DNA from: Tenacibaculum dicentrarchi | GTDB lineage: Bacteria; Bacteroidota; Bacteroidia; Flavobacteriales; Flavobacteriaceae | Direction of reading: 5' to 3' | DNA length: 64,000 bases | NCBI RefSeq assembly: GCF_900239345.1 | Contig: NZ_OESZ01000002.1 | Location: 1 to 64,000 of the forward strand | Shown here: one piece after another, positions 36,348-40,501 of the stretch | Layout: every line of letters starts with the position of its first letter | How positions within the stretch are numbered: the first letter of the stretch is position 1 | The notes under the pieces: model-generated | Told to the model about the DNA's origin: nothing | Database searches by the model: none | Seen by the model: the letters and a program-made list of their open reading frames with translations, nothing else | Translations under genes and position numbers: made by a program

Positions 36348-36785
36348 ATGATACAAAGAAAACAATCTATATATTTATTAATTGCGGTATTAATTTCTGC
36401 TGGTTTAACTGCTTTTTGTAGTATTTGGACTAAATCAGAAGCAGATACACCTGTTTACATAATAAATTTATTTTCGGGAGCTAGTTTTTTAGAAAAAATA
36501 ACACCCGTATTATTTTTTCTTTCTGCTTTATTATCGGCTGTAACGCTTTTTTTATTTAAAAATCGTGAGTTGCAATTTGTTTTAGGGCGTGTTAACATAT
36601 TGATTAACTTTTTTTTATTAGGGATATTAATATATCTTTCACAAACATTATCTGGAGAAACTTTAGTTTCTGAGAAAGGTATTGGGATGTTTTTTCCAAT
36701 TCTTGTTATTTTGCTGTTAGTTTTAGCAAATAAAGCCATCAAGAAGGATGAAGATCTTGTAAAATCTGTAGATAGATTACGATAA
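36348..36785 (+). CDS. DUF4293 family membrane protein
   Basis: 145 residues with four hydrophobic segments (about 7-25, 46-68, 77-97, 108-128). The MIQRKQSIYLL opening is typical of DUF4293, a Bacteroidota family of unknown function usually found divergent from rho, as here. It ends at an intrinsic terminator. Confidence 0.88.
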   Translation: MIQRKQSIYLLIAVLISAGLTAFCSIWTKSEADTPVYIINLFSGASFLEKITPVLFFLSALLSAVTLFLFKNRELQFVLGRVNILINFFLLGILIYLSQTLSGETLVSEKGIGMFFPILVILLLVLANKAIKKDEDLVKSVDRLR

Positions 36786-36816
36786 ACCTATTATATTAGT
36801 ATATTTAGTGCGAAAA

Positions 36817-36848
36817 AAAACCGGAATCTTTGATTTCGGTTTTTTTAT
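36817..36848 (+). terminator. Intrinsic terminator after DUF4293 gene
   Basis: AACCGGAATC and GATTTCGGTT form a 10-bp stem with one wobble pair, then TTTTTTTA. Confidence 0.88.
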
Positions 36849-36906
36849 TTTTAAAAACCTACTAATCAAGATGCCAACACCTAAAATGTTAAAGAAATGT
36901 TAACGA

Positions 36907-36945
36907 AATTAGGGTTAACCCTAATTGAATTAGGGTTAACCCTAA
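36907..36945. promoter_or_regulatory. Twin palindromic operator (TTAGGGTTAACCCTAA x2) upstream of the response regulator
   Basis: Palindrome 1 is perfect over 20 bp (36907-36926). Palindrome 2 is perfect over 16 bp (36930-36945). Both contain TTAGGGTTAACCCTAA and their centres are exactly 21 bp apart, two helical turns. A half-site ATTAGGGG follows at 36951-36958. The pair lies just upstream of the promoter at 36969-36999, where an activator would bind. The regulator is most simply the LuxR-type protein encoded downstream, which is inference. Confidence 0.75.
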
Positions 36946-36966
36946 CAATTAATTAGGGGTATTGGG

Positions 36967-36999
36967 TATTGTGTACAATAAATACATGCTATAAATTTG
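36967..36999 (+). promoter_or_regulatory. Promoter of the LuxR-type response regulator gene
   Basis: TTG at 36969-36971 and TAAATTTG at 36992-36999 are 20 bp apart. The -33 element is embedded in a small inverted repeat TATTGT-GT-ACAATA (36967-36980). The ATG at 37014 is only about 10 nt beyond the expected start of transcription. Confidence 0.65.
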
Positions 37000-37013
37000 T
37001 AAACGAAATAACA

Positions 37014-37664
37014 ATGAATCAAAAGATTAAAGTTCACATAGCTGATGACCATAAAATCTTAATAGATGGAGTCATCGCCTTATTAAATACAGAGGATAAC
37101 TTTGAAATAGAAGGATACTCTTTAACAGGTAAACAGGTAGTAAATTGGTCGACTAAAAACAATGCCGATGTACTAATTTTAGACATTAATATGCCTGAAA
37201 TGGATGGAATTGAAGTTTTAAAAACGTTTAAAAAACGTAATATAGAAATTAAAACAATAATTCTATCTGGCTTAAGTGATGCTAAATTAGTGCAACAAAT
37301 GGTTTTATTAGGTGCTAATGGATTTATCGATAAAAGTTGTGCTAGTGAACATATTATAGAAGCCATAAAAGATGTGTATAATGGTGCACAATATTTTAGT
37401 GATACTATTAAAACTAACCTATTGGAATTGTATGTTTCTGAAGCAAAAATTGAAGAAAATCTTTTAAATAAAGAAGAATTAACAGAAAGAGAAATTGAAG
37501 TATTAAAGCAAATAGCTTTAGAAAAAAACTCCTCTGAAATAGCACTACATTTATTAGTGAGTGTAAAAACGATAGAAACATATCGTAAGAGTTTATATAG
37601 AAAATTAAAAGTAAAAAATGTAGTAGGTTTAGCGATGTACGCTGTGAGAAACAATATAATATAA
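37014..37664 (+). CDS. NarL/LuxR-type response regulator
   Basis: 216 residues from the ATG at 37014. A longer frame starting at a TTG would cover the promoter and add a non-homologous leader. The receiver domain (1-125) has the acidic pair D11/D12, phospho-acceptor D57 in LILDINMPEMDG, and K107. A GerE/LuxR HTH occupies 155-216 (ELTEREIEVLKQIALEKNSSEIA, VKTIETYRKSLYRKL in parts). The cognate kinase is most likely the TPR histidine kinase at 38636, with a lipoprotein gene between them. The twin palindrome upstream suggests autoregulation. Confidence 0.94.
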   Translation: MNQKIKVHIADDHKILIDGVIALLNTEDNFEIEGYSLTGKQVVNWSTKNNADVLILDINMPEMDGIEVLKTFKKRNIEIKTIILSGLSDAKLVQQMVLLGANGFIDKSCASEHIIEAIKDVYNGAQYFSDTIKTNLLELYVSEAKIEENLLNKEELTEREIEVLKQIALEKNSSEIALHLLVSVKTIETYRKSLYRKLKVKNVVGLAMYAVRNNII

Positions 37665-37702
37665 AGTAATAGTCCCCCGTAATATAGCACTATACATTAT
37701 AA

Positions 37703-37763
37703 AAGTACATCGTTAATGACTACTAAATTAAATAAATATGAAATAAAACTTAGCGATGTACTT
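37703..37763. repeat. Inverted repeat AAGTACATCG...CGATGTACTT in the intergenic gap
   Basis: Perfect 10-bp arms about 41 bp apart, between the response regulator and lipoprotein genes. TTAGCGATGTAC at 37750-37761 is also a direct repeat of a word inside the end of the response-regulator gene (37628-37639), and a related GTGCATCGC word occurs near 37834-37842. Confidence 0.5.
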
Positions 37764-37889
37764 GTTAGTAATACCTAACATTTTTAAAAAACCCTTCATT
37801 TTGTTTTGATTATCGTACTATGTTTTTTTAGTGCATCGCTTTTTTATACTATTAAAAAGAATAAACTAAACCTAATAAATTAGTAAATT

Positions 37890-38582
37890 ATGATTAAATT
37901 AATCCCATTTTTAGTAGCTTCAACCTTAATTTTAACATCGTGTTCTTCTAACCAAACAGAAGCTCCTAGTGCTCCACAACAAAAATTATTAGAATCTTAC
38001 AGTCTTAAAAGAGATGCAAATGGCGCATATTCTATCGATTTAAAAACAACAAATTATACCGATATAACTAGCCTTAAAAATAGCGAAAATACTAATGAAA
38101 TTATTTTATCAGAAGCAAGCAACAAAACGGCTAAGAAATACAGTAATAATTTTTTAATAGAAAATGAGCAGTTAGTTATTGGGTTTTTAGATGCTAATAA
38201 AGGAAATAGAAAAAAAATAACTATTGAAGACCAAAATAGTAACCTTTCTAAAAGGAATATTACCGAATTTTTAAATTCTTATAGTGTTACCGAAAATAAC
38301 GATGGTACTTATTTACTTTCTTTTAAGGTTAATAACAATGTTGCTACAACGTTTACCTATAATCAAGAAATAGCAACCTACGAAGTTCATTTATCTGAAG
38401 GAAATACTACTCAAAAAGATTTCTCAGAAACTATTGCTCTTTCTCCTAATGAAAATACCTTAAGAATAGATTTTGTAAATCATAAATATTCAACAATAAA
38501 TAAAGGAATTACGAGTTCTCGTAAAGCTATGGGAGCTTATGGTAGAAAACCAAGACTTATAATTGAAAATGGTAATGATTAA
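37890..38582 (+). CDS. Lipoprotein with internally duplicated domain, unrecognised
   Basis: 230 residues with a lipobox (LTSC, Cys18). It contains two copies of one beta-rich unit: SYSLKRDANGAYSIDLKT...EIILSEASN (about 36-80) and SYSVTENNDGTYLLSFKV...EVHLSEGN (about 130-176). A basic tail (SSRKAMGAYGRKPR) ends the protein. I do not recognise a family. It lies between the response regulator and the sensor kinase, so it may be the periplasmic input or target of that system (inference). Confidence 0.78.
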   Translation: MIKLIPFLVASTLILTSCSSNQTEAPSAPQQKLLESYSLKRDANGAYSIDLKTTNYTDITSLKNSENTNEIILSEASNKTAKKYSNNFLIENEQLVIGFLDANKGNRKKITIEDQNSNLSKRNITEFLNSYSVTENNDGTYLLSFKVNNNVATTFTYNQEIATYEVHLSEGNTTQKDFSETIALSPNENTLRIDFVNHKYSTINKGITSSRKAMGAYGRKPRLIIENGND

Positions 38583-38635
38583 TCGTCTTATATAAAATCA
38601 GTATTTTTGAGCTAGTACTCTTAAAATATTTTCAT

Positions 38636-40501
38636 TTGAAAAAAAATGTTCAAAAAAAAATAAAAACAAAACTATTAATTACTTGGTTAATTCTATTTAT
38701 TTCTTGTAATGTAAATGCAAATATTGATAAACATTTACGTTTAGAACAGCGTTTTATTATTCAAAATAATAATACTTTAAAAAAAAAGTATCAAAATATA
38801 TTTAAAGAATATAATAAAGGGGCGTATATTTCTTCTTTGAAAAGTAGTTTTTTACTATTTCAAAAAAGTAAAAAAAATAAAAACCACAAATTTACATATT
38901 TAACAGCTATGCTAATAGCTGATATTTATGATAAAACAAACAACTACAACAAATCTTTAGAATATTACAAAATAGCACTTCATTTTCTTGAGAAAAACAA
39001 CTCTTATTTTTCTCAAGAAAATACTGCAACAAAGATAGAAAGTCTTTATACTGAAGTTTATTTAAGAATTGCTAGTGCTTATCAAAAAAATTACAAAATT
39101 CAAAAAAATACTTCTTCACTTAAAAAAAAAGAAAACAGTAAAGATTCCGCTATTTTTTTTTATAAAAAATTACAAAATTTAAACTTAGTTAACGAAAAAA
39201 GCCTAAAAAACAAGGCACTGTCTTATATTAATTTATCAGCAATATATCAACAAGATTCTCTTTTTGAAAAAGCCGAAATCTTTGCTTTAAAAGCAATTAA
39301 AATTCATAAAAAAAGAGCTGATAATGTAAAGCATGCAAGTTCTTTAAACAACCTTGCTAGTATTTATTTATCTTTAAATCAATTCAAAAAAGCTAAAAAT
39401 ACCTACTTAGAAGCTATTAGCTTAATACAAGATAATAACAGCCCCGTAGCTGTTAAACATAAATCTACATTATACTACAATTTGGCGTGGGCTATGCGGA
39501 ATTTAAAAGATTATAAAGCCTACGATTATCAAGAGTTATCATACGATATTGAAGACAATCAACGAGAGAAAGAAGTTCGAAGTATTATTGAAGAGATAAC
39601 CGTAAAACACAAAGAAACTTTAGAACAACAAAAAGTAAACTTAGTAAAAGAACAAAGAAAACTTGTAGAAGCTAAAGATAATAAAACAACATGGTTATTT
39701 GGTGCTTTAAGCTTATTGGTTATCATTATATCGGCAGGTGTTGTTTATAACTACAAACTTCGTCAGAAAAACTTACAACTAAAACTTTCTGAAAATAACT
39801 TACGGGAACAACAGGCTATTGAAAAACTGAAATCAGAAACACAAACAAAAATATTAAATGCTACTATTGATGGTAAAGAATCTGAACGAAAACAAATAGC
39901 AGAAATTTTACACGACAATGTTAGTGCCTTATTATCATCGGCAAATATGCACTTAGGTGCCTCAAAAAAACAATTTAAAAATAATGTTCCTGTTGAAATT
40001 GAAAAAACACAAGCAATTATATTAGAAGCTTCTAAAAAAGTTAGAGATTTATCACACAATTTGGTTTCAGCTGTTTTATTGAAATTCGGTTTAGAATACG
40101 CTTTAAAAGATATTACTAAAAAATACTCTAACCATCAATTAAGGTTTGATGTTTCTGCTCAAAATATTGATAGATATCAACAAGATTTTGAAATGAAAAT
40201 ATATAATATTATTCAAGAACTTATAAATAATATTCTAAAACACAGTGAAGCTAGCTATGCACAAATAATTATAAAACAACATAATGATGCACTAAGTATT
40301 CTTGTTAATGATGATGGAATTGGATTTTCTATGGTTAACTCGGCAATTAATAACGGTATCGGTTTAAAGCAAATATCGACAAGAATTGAAATGATGAAAG
40401 GTACATTTACCATTAAGTCGGATAAAAATAAAGGCACAAAAATAACTATTATTGTACCTGTTCAACATAAAGAAACATTTGATTTTTCATCAATAAGTTA
40501 A
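38636..40501 (+). CDS. TPR-containing sensor histidine kinase (HisKA_3/NarX-type)
   Basis: 621 residues starting at a TTG codon, which gives a proper basic/hydrophobic leader (1-29). A periplasmic helical TPR region (about 85-300) precedes one membrane helix (353-373), a coiled coil (about 375-415), the HisKA_3 dimerisation helix with phospho-histidine H426 (AEILHDN), and a HATPase domain with the N-box near 526-535 and DDGIGF at 559-564. This matches kinases pairing with NarL/LuxR-type regulators. Its stop codon overlaps the stop of the convergent phosphoesterase gene. Confidence 0.93.
   Translation: MKKNVQKKIKTKLLITWLILFISCNVNANIDKHLRLEQRFIIQNNNTLKKKYQNIFKEYNKGAYISSLKSSFLLFQKSKKNKNHKFTYLTAMLIADIYDKTNNYNKSLEYYKIALHFLEKNNSYFSQENTATKIESLYTEVYLRIASAYQKNYKIQKNTSSLKKKENSKDSAIFFYKKLQNLNLVNEKSLKNKALSYINLSAIYQQDSLFEKAEIFALKAIKIHKKRADNVKHASSLNNLASIYLSLNQFKKAKNTYLEAISLIQDNNSPVAVKHKSTLYYNLAWAMRNLKDYKAYDYQELSYDIEDNQREKEVRSIIEEITVKHKETLEQQKVNLVKEQRKLVEAKDNKTTWLFGALSLLVIIISAGVVYNYKLRQKNLQLKLSENNLREQQAIEKLKSETQTKILNATIDGKESERKQIAEILHDNVSALLSSANMHLGASKKQFKNNVPVEIEKTQAIILEASKKVRDLSHNLVSAVLLKFGLEYALKDITKKYSNHQLRFDVSAQNIDRYQQDFEMKIYNIIQELINNILKHSEASYAQIIIKQHNDALSILVNDDGIGFSMVNSAINNGIGLKQISTRIEMMKGTFTIKSDKNKGTKITIIVPVQHKETFDFSSIS

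Follow-up and report, generated by a model that had tools for sequence, protein, structure and literature searches.

The question raised by this locus of Tenacibaculum dicentrarchi is what two perfect and closely spaced palindromes are doing upstream of a response regulator (RR) gene, and which protein reads them. The window, i.e., the whole stretch of DNA analysed here (64,000 nucleotides, contig NZ_OESZ01000002.1), carries the two palindromes with their common core TTAGGGTTAACCCTAA at 36909-36924 and 36930-36945, and their centres (36916.5 and 36937.5) are 21 bp apart, exactly as described in the original prediction. When up to three mismatches are allowed, TTAGGGTTAACCCTAA is matched three times in the 64 kb compared to a mean of 0.53 in shuffled sequences, the third match carrying 3 mismatches. 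The promoter proposed for the regulator is also there, with TTG at 36969-36971, 20 nt and TAAATTTG at 36992-36999, at the distances given for it and for the response regulator ATG (37014). Two elements had been overlooked, namely a third copy of the operator, adjoining the -33 TTG box, and a terminator-like hairpin (36814-36846) located 3' of the preceding gene. The DNA holding the palindromes is therefore probably not transcribed, as this hairpin stops at 36846. The small inverted repeat described at -33 (TTGTGTACAA) is present in this genome, but it is not conserved and was rejected as a conserved element, orthologs reading other sequences at that place (TTGTACAC, TTGTGAGA, etc.). All these features are collected in Table 1. 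The TGTTAA elements found just 5' of the operators also flank other sites of this genome, and a second factor is possibly involved beside the operators. Being perfect inverted repeats, the palindromes might also be RNA hairpins, terminators or remnants of mobile elements, which we regard as extremely unlikely because they sit between the terminator-like hairpin and the -33 box and because their sequence varies between species while their position before the promoter is constant (see below).

Table 1. Coordinates of the features at the response regulator locus, in positions of the window.
Feature	Position	Strand	Description
TGTTAA-N5-TGTTAA direct repeat	36887..36903	+	Just 5' of the operators; present in close relatives (by eye)
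Operator A (putative)	36907..36926	.	Perfect 20-bp palindrome AATTAGGGTTAACCCTAATT; layout seen in orthologs
Operator B (putative)	36930..36945	.	TTAGGGTTAACCCTAA, perfect over 16 bp; layout seen in orthologs
Operator C (putative)	36952..36969	+	Hybrid site ATTAGGG-GTAT-TGGGTAT; centre 23 bp from B
Promoter	36969..36999	+	-33 TTG, -7 TAAATTTG; similar -7 boxes in orthologs (by eye)
Response regulator (RR), 216 aa	37014..37664	+	Receiver and GerE (LuxR-type) HTH; K185 in recognition helix
RR-lipoprotein leader	37665..37889	+	One CCCCC run (37674-37678) and three segments able to pair with one another
Leader segments able to pair	37703-37716, 37750-37763, 37830-37839	+	3' segment followed by a T run
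Lipoprotein-like gene, 230 aa	37890..38582	+	No Pfam match
Histidine kinase	38636..40501	+	TPR, HisKA_3 and HATPase_c

The regulator falls within the definition of the NarL/FixJ (LuxR-type) family, with matches to PF00072 (E 6.2e-23) and PF00196 (E 2.5e-14) both above the cut-off, and the histidine kinase encoded after the lipoprotein-like gene is its presumed partner. Its four nearest named orthologs all belong to Tenacibaculum (L021-L024, 66-79% identity), and their promoters retain one or two palindromes together with the element at -33. Within the genus, the regulator was detected at E ≤ 1e-40 in 134 of 166 genomes, and 130 of its promoters were read as the sample for comparison. The lipoprotein was matched in 123 of these 130 loci and a kinase was matched near the regulator in 114, with 15 of the 16 misses corresponding to stretches shorter than 3.7 kb.

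Across the genus the layout of the promoter is kept and the word is changed. A strong twin inverted repeat, defined by at least 12 of 14 arm pairs, appeared in 88 of the 130 orthologous upstream regions, compared to 2.6 expected from shuffles, in a search for the best twin that at times chose terminator hairpins. The commonest spacings among these 88 twins were 22 bp (42 loci) and 21 bp (22 loci), and 20 of the 130 loci had no site with at least 6/7 arm pairs. The arms differ between clades (ATTAGGG, CTCAGGG, CTAAGGG, CTCACGG, CTCACTG, ATCCCTG, CTCCCCA, CTCCCCC, CTACGTA, and others). Many promoters have, by eye, a third site at the -33 box, the right arm of which often reads GGGNATTG irrespective of the operator type, as if this arm were constrained by the promoter. 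Lack of conservation in orthologous loci had been named beforehand as a refutation, and the twin layout does persist in orthologs; the exact palindrome is not genus-wide and one of the two is degenerate or lost in part of the genus. The precise word appears to be particular to a clade, as one state of a putatively co-evolving operator.

The half-site changes together with one position of the regulator. Over 110 loci, the half-site shared most information with residue 185 (mutual information 3.74) and next most with residue 106 (2.53). The pairings were K185 with AGGG (38), N with CAC (21), S with CCCA or CCTA (18), H with CCTG (11), and R with CGTA (3), a code that fits 91 of 95 classified loci (the other 15 of the 110 are unclassified), with residue and operator classes that were set after the table had been seen. 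The four loci breaking it combine R with ATACCCA, S with CCCTG, T with CCCCA, and H with CCCTA. One could think that this association is nothing else than the shared ancestry of a few clades, given that about eight operator changes (and 13 residue changes) are required on the receiver-domain tree, that the K class is one clade, and that a sign test on independent pairs had no power, the pairs being too few for significance. Ancestry is common to all the columns of the regulator, and yet at matched receiver-domain identity residues 185 and 188 rank first and second of 182 columns. For loci with 0.60-0.70 identity, the half-site distance was 0.247 when residue 185 was the same (582 pairs) versus 0.519 when it differed (847 pairs). 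Moreover, the N-CAC and S-CCCA/CCTA pairings recur in separated parts of the tree, poorly resolved as it is, and by eye also in other genera, all of which makes mere ancestry very unlikely. As for these other genera, among 299 genomes drawn from the family the regulator was found at E ≤ 1e-48 in 25, of which 22 were outside Tenacibaculum. Nine of these 22 loci had S or N at position 185 and an upstream palindrome, and the nine fit the code by eye, some of them with imperfect arms; two others had G185, for which no class fits, and in the other 11 (5 S, 4 N, 1 H, and 1 R) no upstream palindrome was seen by eye.

The genome-wide search suggested with the original prediction was carried out by pattern searches and fetched stretches of the 2.80-Mb genome. 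It yielded seven exact copies of the core AGGGTTAACCCT at four places, all of them outside open reading frames (ORFs) of at least 70 aa, and no exact copy of the reversed control (genome G000). Two of these copies are the pair in the window. A second pair (C14:43531/43553), 22 bp apart, is located 5' of GLPGLI-family (TIGR01200) and CarbopepD_reg_2 genes, two copies separated by 139 bp (C15:71771/71910) are 5' of a GLPGLI-like gene (by resemblance only), and a single copy (C15:248297) precedes the gene of a protein for which a Por secretion tail and weak leucine-rich matches were found. The 20-mer TTAGGGGTATTGGGTATTGT (36953-36972) recurs without mismatch once elsewhere in the genome, in this last promoter (C15:248297), beside the palindrome there. 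There were two more matches with one mismatch: C44:186961, within a 908-aa ORF and not counted as an operator, and C9:12705, left out of the operator count.

The same exercise was extended to four operator types, which were searched in the 166 genomes and tabulated by residue 185 for the 130 that had been read, including the regulator promoter in the counts. It is evident how each type goes with its residue: AGGGTTAACCCT appeared in 27 of 47 K185 genomes versus 1 of 83 others, CTAAGGGn4CCCTTAG in 15 of 47 K185 genomes versus 0 of 83, TCCCTGAnnTCAGGGA in 12 of 15 H185 genomes versus 0 of 115, and CTCACTGn4CAGTGAG in 14 of 30 N185 genomes versus 0 of 100. The copy in G118, the sole non-K genome with AGGGTTAACCCT, is within an ORF, as is the only AGGGTTAACCCT copy of the K185 genome G094; the contexts of the remaining matches were read in part. 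Five genomes with operator matches fall outside the set read for the regulator (G091, G093, G101, G129, and G160). Reversed-pattern controls gave few matches, with none in two of the searches, at most one per genome for AGGGTTAACCCT, and nine copies in four genomes (G142, G145, G147, and G150) for one of them. These data also bear on the idea of an unlinked transcription factor that binds the palindromes and has the regulator gene as merely one of its targets. Such a factor would suit the palindromes that precede genes unlinked to the regulator, but the covariation peaks in the recognition helix of the regulator itself (its own columns being the ones examined) and the genome-wide occurrence of the operators tracks its residue 185, so that we find this idea highly improbable.

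The twin palindromes are, very probably, the regulator's own operator. The best explanation, which we consider highly likely as far as binding and co-evolution are concerned, is that the regulator binds these operators and that both change together, mainly via residue 185 of the recognition helix. The cooperative autoregulator proposed in the original prediction fits because the half-site covaries with residue 185 and because the genome-wide occurrence of the operators follows this residue, and the conserved layout supports it as well. According to this model, dimers of the regulator, presumably phosphorylated, would fill A and B on one face of the DNA, two helical turns apart, and would also occupy the hybrid site C at the -33 box, where they would contact the polymerase, most likely recruiting it. 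The regulator, lipoprotein, and kinase genes, which we infer to be co-transcribed, would be positively autoregulated, and a few other promoters with the same word would be co-activated. Given binding, activation of its promoter is probable, and the hybrid third site overlapping -33 would favor it. The opposite sign, that is, a regulator that binds these sites yet represses its own promoter with C blocking the polymerase at -33 (negative autoregulation), could appeal to the fact that C adjoins the -33 box. We consider it unlikely because a similar A-B-C layout is seen, by eye, before other putative target promoters, including those of candidate small RNAs (sRNAs), and because NarL-type regulators that have upstream arrays often act as activators.

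The genes close to the operators give some idea of the putative regulon. In the species of the window and its near relatives they include GLPGLI genes, genes of the small secreted peptide and outer-membrane types, and the Por-tail protein, and in another genome of the same species (L201) an HlyD-type adaptor. In the TCCCTGA clade the sites are found before lipoproteins with differing C-termini, whose lipase and SprT-like matches are weak and below the curated cut-offs. In L340, L341, L346, L352, and L206, near operators of two types, there are lipoproteins that begin alike at the N-terminus and diverge in their C-terminal parts (weak lipase or SprT-like matches), and these are possibly polymorphic effectors. 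Small secreted peptides (~70-110 aa) were also observed near operator sites (L200, L203, L208, L209, L215, and L347), and the three that were compared with NCBIfam (L203, L208, and L347) had no match. Our guess is that the regulon has a role in secretion and competition between bacteria.

Another feature that stands out is the leader between the regulator and lipoprotein genes. The 126 usable leaders of the 130 loci contained 364 runs of at least four C, where mononucleotide shuffling predicts 35, and runs of four G were absent (at loci without a lipoprotein match, 260 nt 3' of the regulator were taken as the leader). The 100-nt control stretch 5' of the regulator had 0.04 C runs per locus. 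Nine of the 126 leaders lack a C run of at least four, and that of the window has one. Pairing was analysed in 19 leaders selected from the 47 K185 loci: in these, pairing of the middle-3' stem is intact at ten positions in every cell (190 of 190), with both sides changed at three of these positions, and at an eleventh position it holds in 9 of 19, and the 5'-middle stem pairs in 187 of 209 cells. This three-segment set looks like a putative attenuator. The fold of the window leader is by itself not exceptional (z -1.9), Rfam gave no match at gathering scores in 36700-38700 of the window, and by eye the three-segment set was lacking in further leaders of K185 loci (the CTAAGGG clade, for example), which are shorter. 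The word TTAGCGATGTAC is common to the 3' end of the regulator coding sequence (37629-37640) and the middle segment (37750-37761), so that base pairing between this 3' end and the 5' and 3' leader segments would be feasible as well.

In relatives, regulator-type operators also precede a candidate sRNA of ~95-120 nt, whose loops are C-rich and which has a terminator, present in up to five copies and often in tandem (L345, L349, L353, L354, and L358-L387). A model built with nine copies matched 35 of the 166 genomes at E ≤ 1e-3, and at this threshold the genome of the window had no match. Weak matches such as L380 and L383 are devoid of operator and may be false. Among the 27 inspected loci with a regulator site in the same genome, 18 carry their own genome's operator above the 95th percentile of the operators of other classes and nine are below, and Rfam at gathering scores gave nothing for four sRNA loci. 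In four fully read loci, the candidate is located between a hydrolase-like gene and what we take to be prfA (both named by recognition). No such sRNA was seen by eye in the 750 bp beside prfA in 15 K185 genomes, including that of the window, and it was seen there in two (G056 and G026) of five genomes with other residues. The comparison with GacA/UvrY, NarL-type regulators that control the RsmY/Z or CsrB sRNAs, comes to mind, since here the same operator types precede candidate sRNAs, often in tandem. However, the regulator scores 118.7 bits where the cut-off of the GacA/UvrY/SirA model (NF007018) is 280, and the candidate sRNA motif is C-rich and not the GGA of Rsm/Csr-type sRNAs, apart from having no match in the genome of the window. 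The candidates also look unlike the Bacteroides FopS sRNAs, which PMC11697453 describes with a single-stranded 5' stretch and a terminator hairpin. As a speculation, and a doubtful one, the regulator of this flavobacterial group might head a Gac/Rsm-like and putatively CsrA-free network, driving from its co-evolving twin operators sRNAs, often tandem, whose exposed C-runs also occur in the leader after its own gene. These sRNAs would titrate a regulator recognising C-runs (or vie for a common partner), with the leader attenuator setting the kinase output. The species of the window would then retain the leader arm, the sRNA having been lost, replaced, or never present.

Several known systems resemble this one in part. 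NarL shares the receiver and GerE architecture and carries S at the position aligned with residue 185. It binds 7-2-7 sites with the consensus TACYYMT, and the CCCCA/CCCTA half-sites of the S185 relatives resemble TACCCAT; the half-site in the window is TTAGGG, and the regulator described here scores 105.7 bits, below the cut-off of 250 (NF007935). FimS/FimR of Porphyromonas gingivalis has a LuxR-type regulator (FimR) and, likewise, a TPR histidine kinase, but the kinase found here matches only the TPR part of the FimS model (33 bits, cut-off 600, NF053520). The MctR/MctS models are not reached either, with 149.7 of 300 bits for the regulator and 107.1 of 700 bits for the kinase. A resemblance in DNA is also seen to RcsB. 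Residue 185 aligns with RcsB K180 (positions 5-59 of the query, numbered from residue 151, on 150-204 of the chain), a lysine at the same place of the recognition helix that is described in PMC5829831 as one of two residues with base-specific contacts, and the half-site of that RcsB-DNA structure, TTAGGAA, is close to the TTAGGG found here. The original statement that this is not a described operator has to be softened in this sense. There are differences, as the regulator scores 61.6 bits (cut-off 235, PRK10840), the gene order is another, the operators are twin at 21-22 bp, and the operator word depends on the species. In DosR, K182, N183, and K179 are termed core DNA-binding residues (PMC5999986). 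Position-specific covariation of transcription factor and operator is described in PMC5045206 for five related subfamilies of heavy-metal regulators of the MerR family, where, as here, contact residues are indicated by the mutual information that columns of the protein share with those of the DNA, whereas our case concerns orthologs of one regulator at one promoter in one genus.

Taken singly, the regulator, the kinase, and the autoregulation belong to known kinds. The seemingly new part is that the word has changed repeatedly together with one residue of the recognition helix, within one genus and with the layout kept; neither this operator nor operator switching among orthologs of NarL-type regulators was found in the open-access titles and abstract beginnings among the matches listed. 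The finding also gives access to the regulon of a two-component system of Bacteroidota, no description of which was found among the open-access matches listed. Overall, the DNA word used by orthologous regulators at a single promoter seems to have switched several times following a near one-residue code, which provides a large family of regulators with a recognition code that can be tested and offers a natural series for asking how a regulator and its operators shift specificity jointly without losing function.
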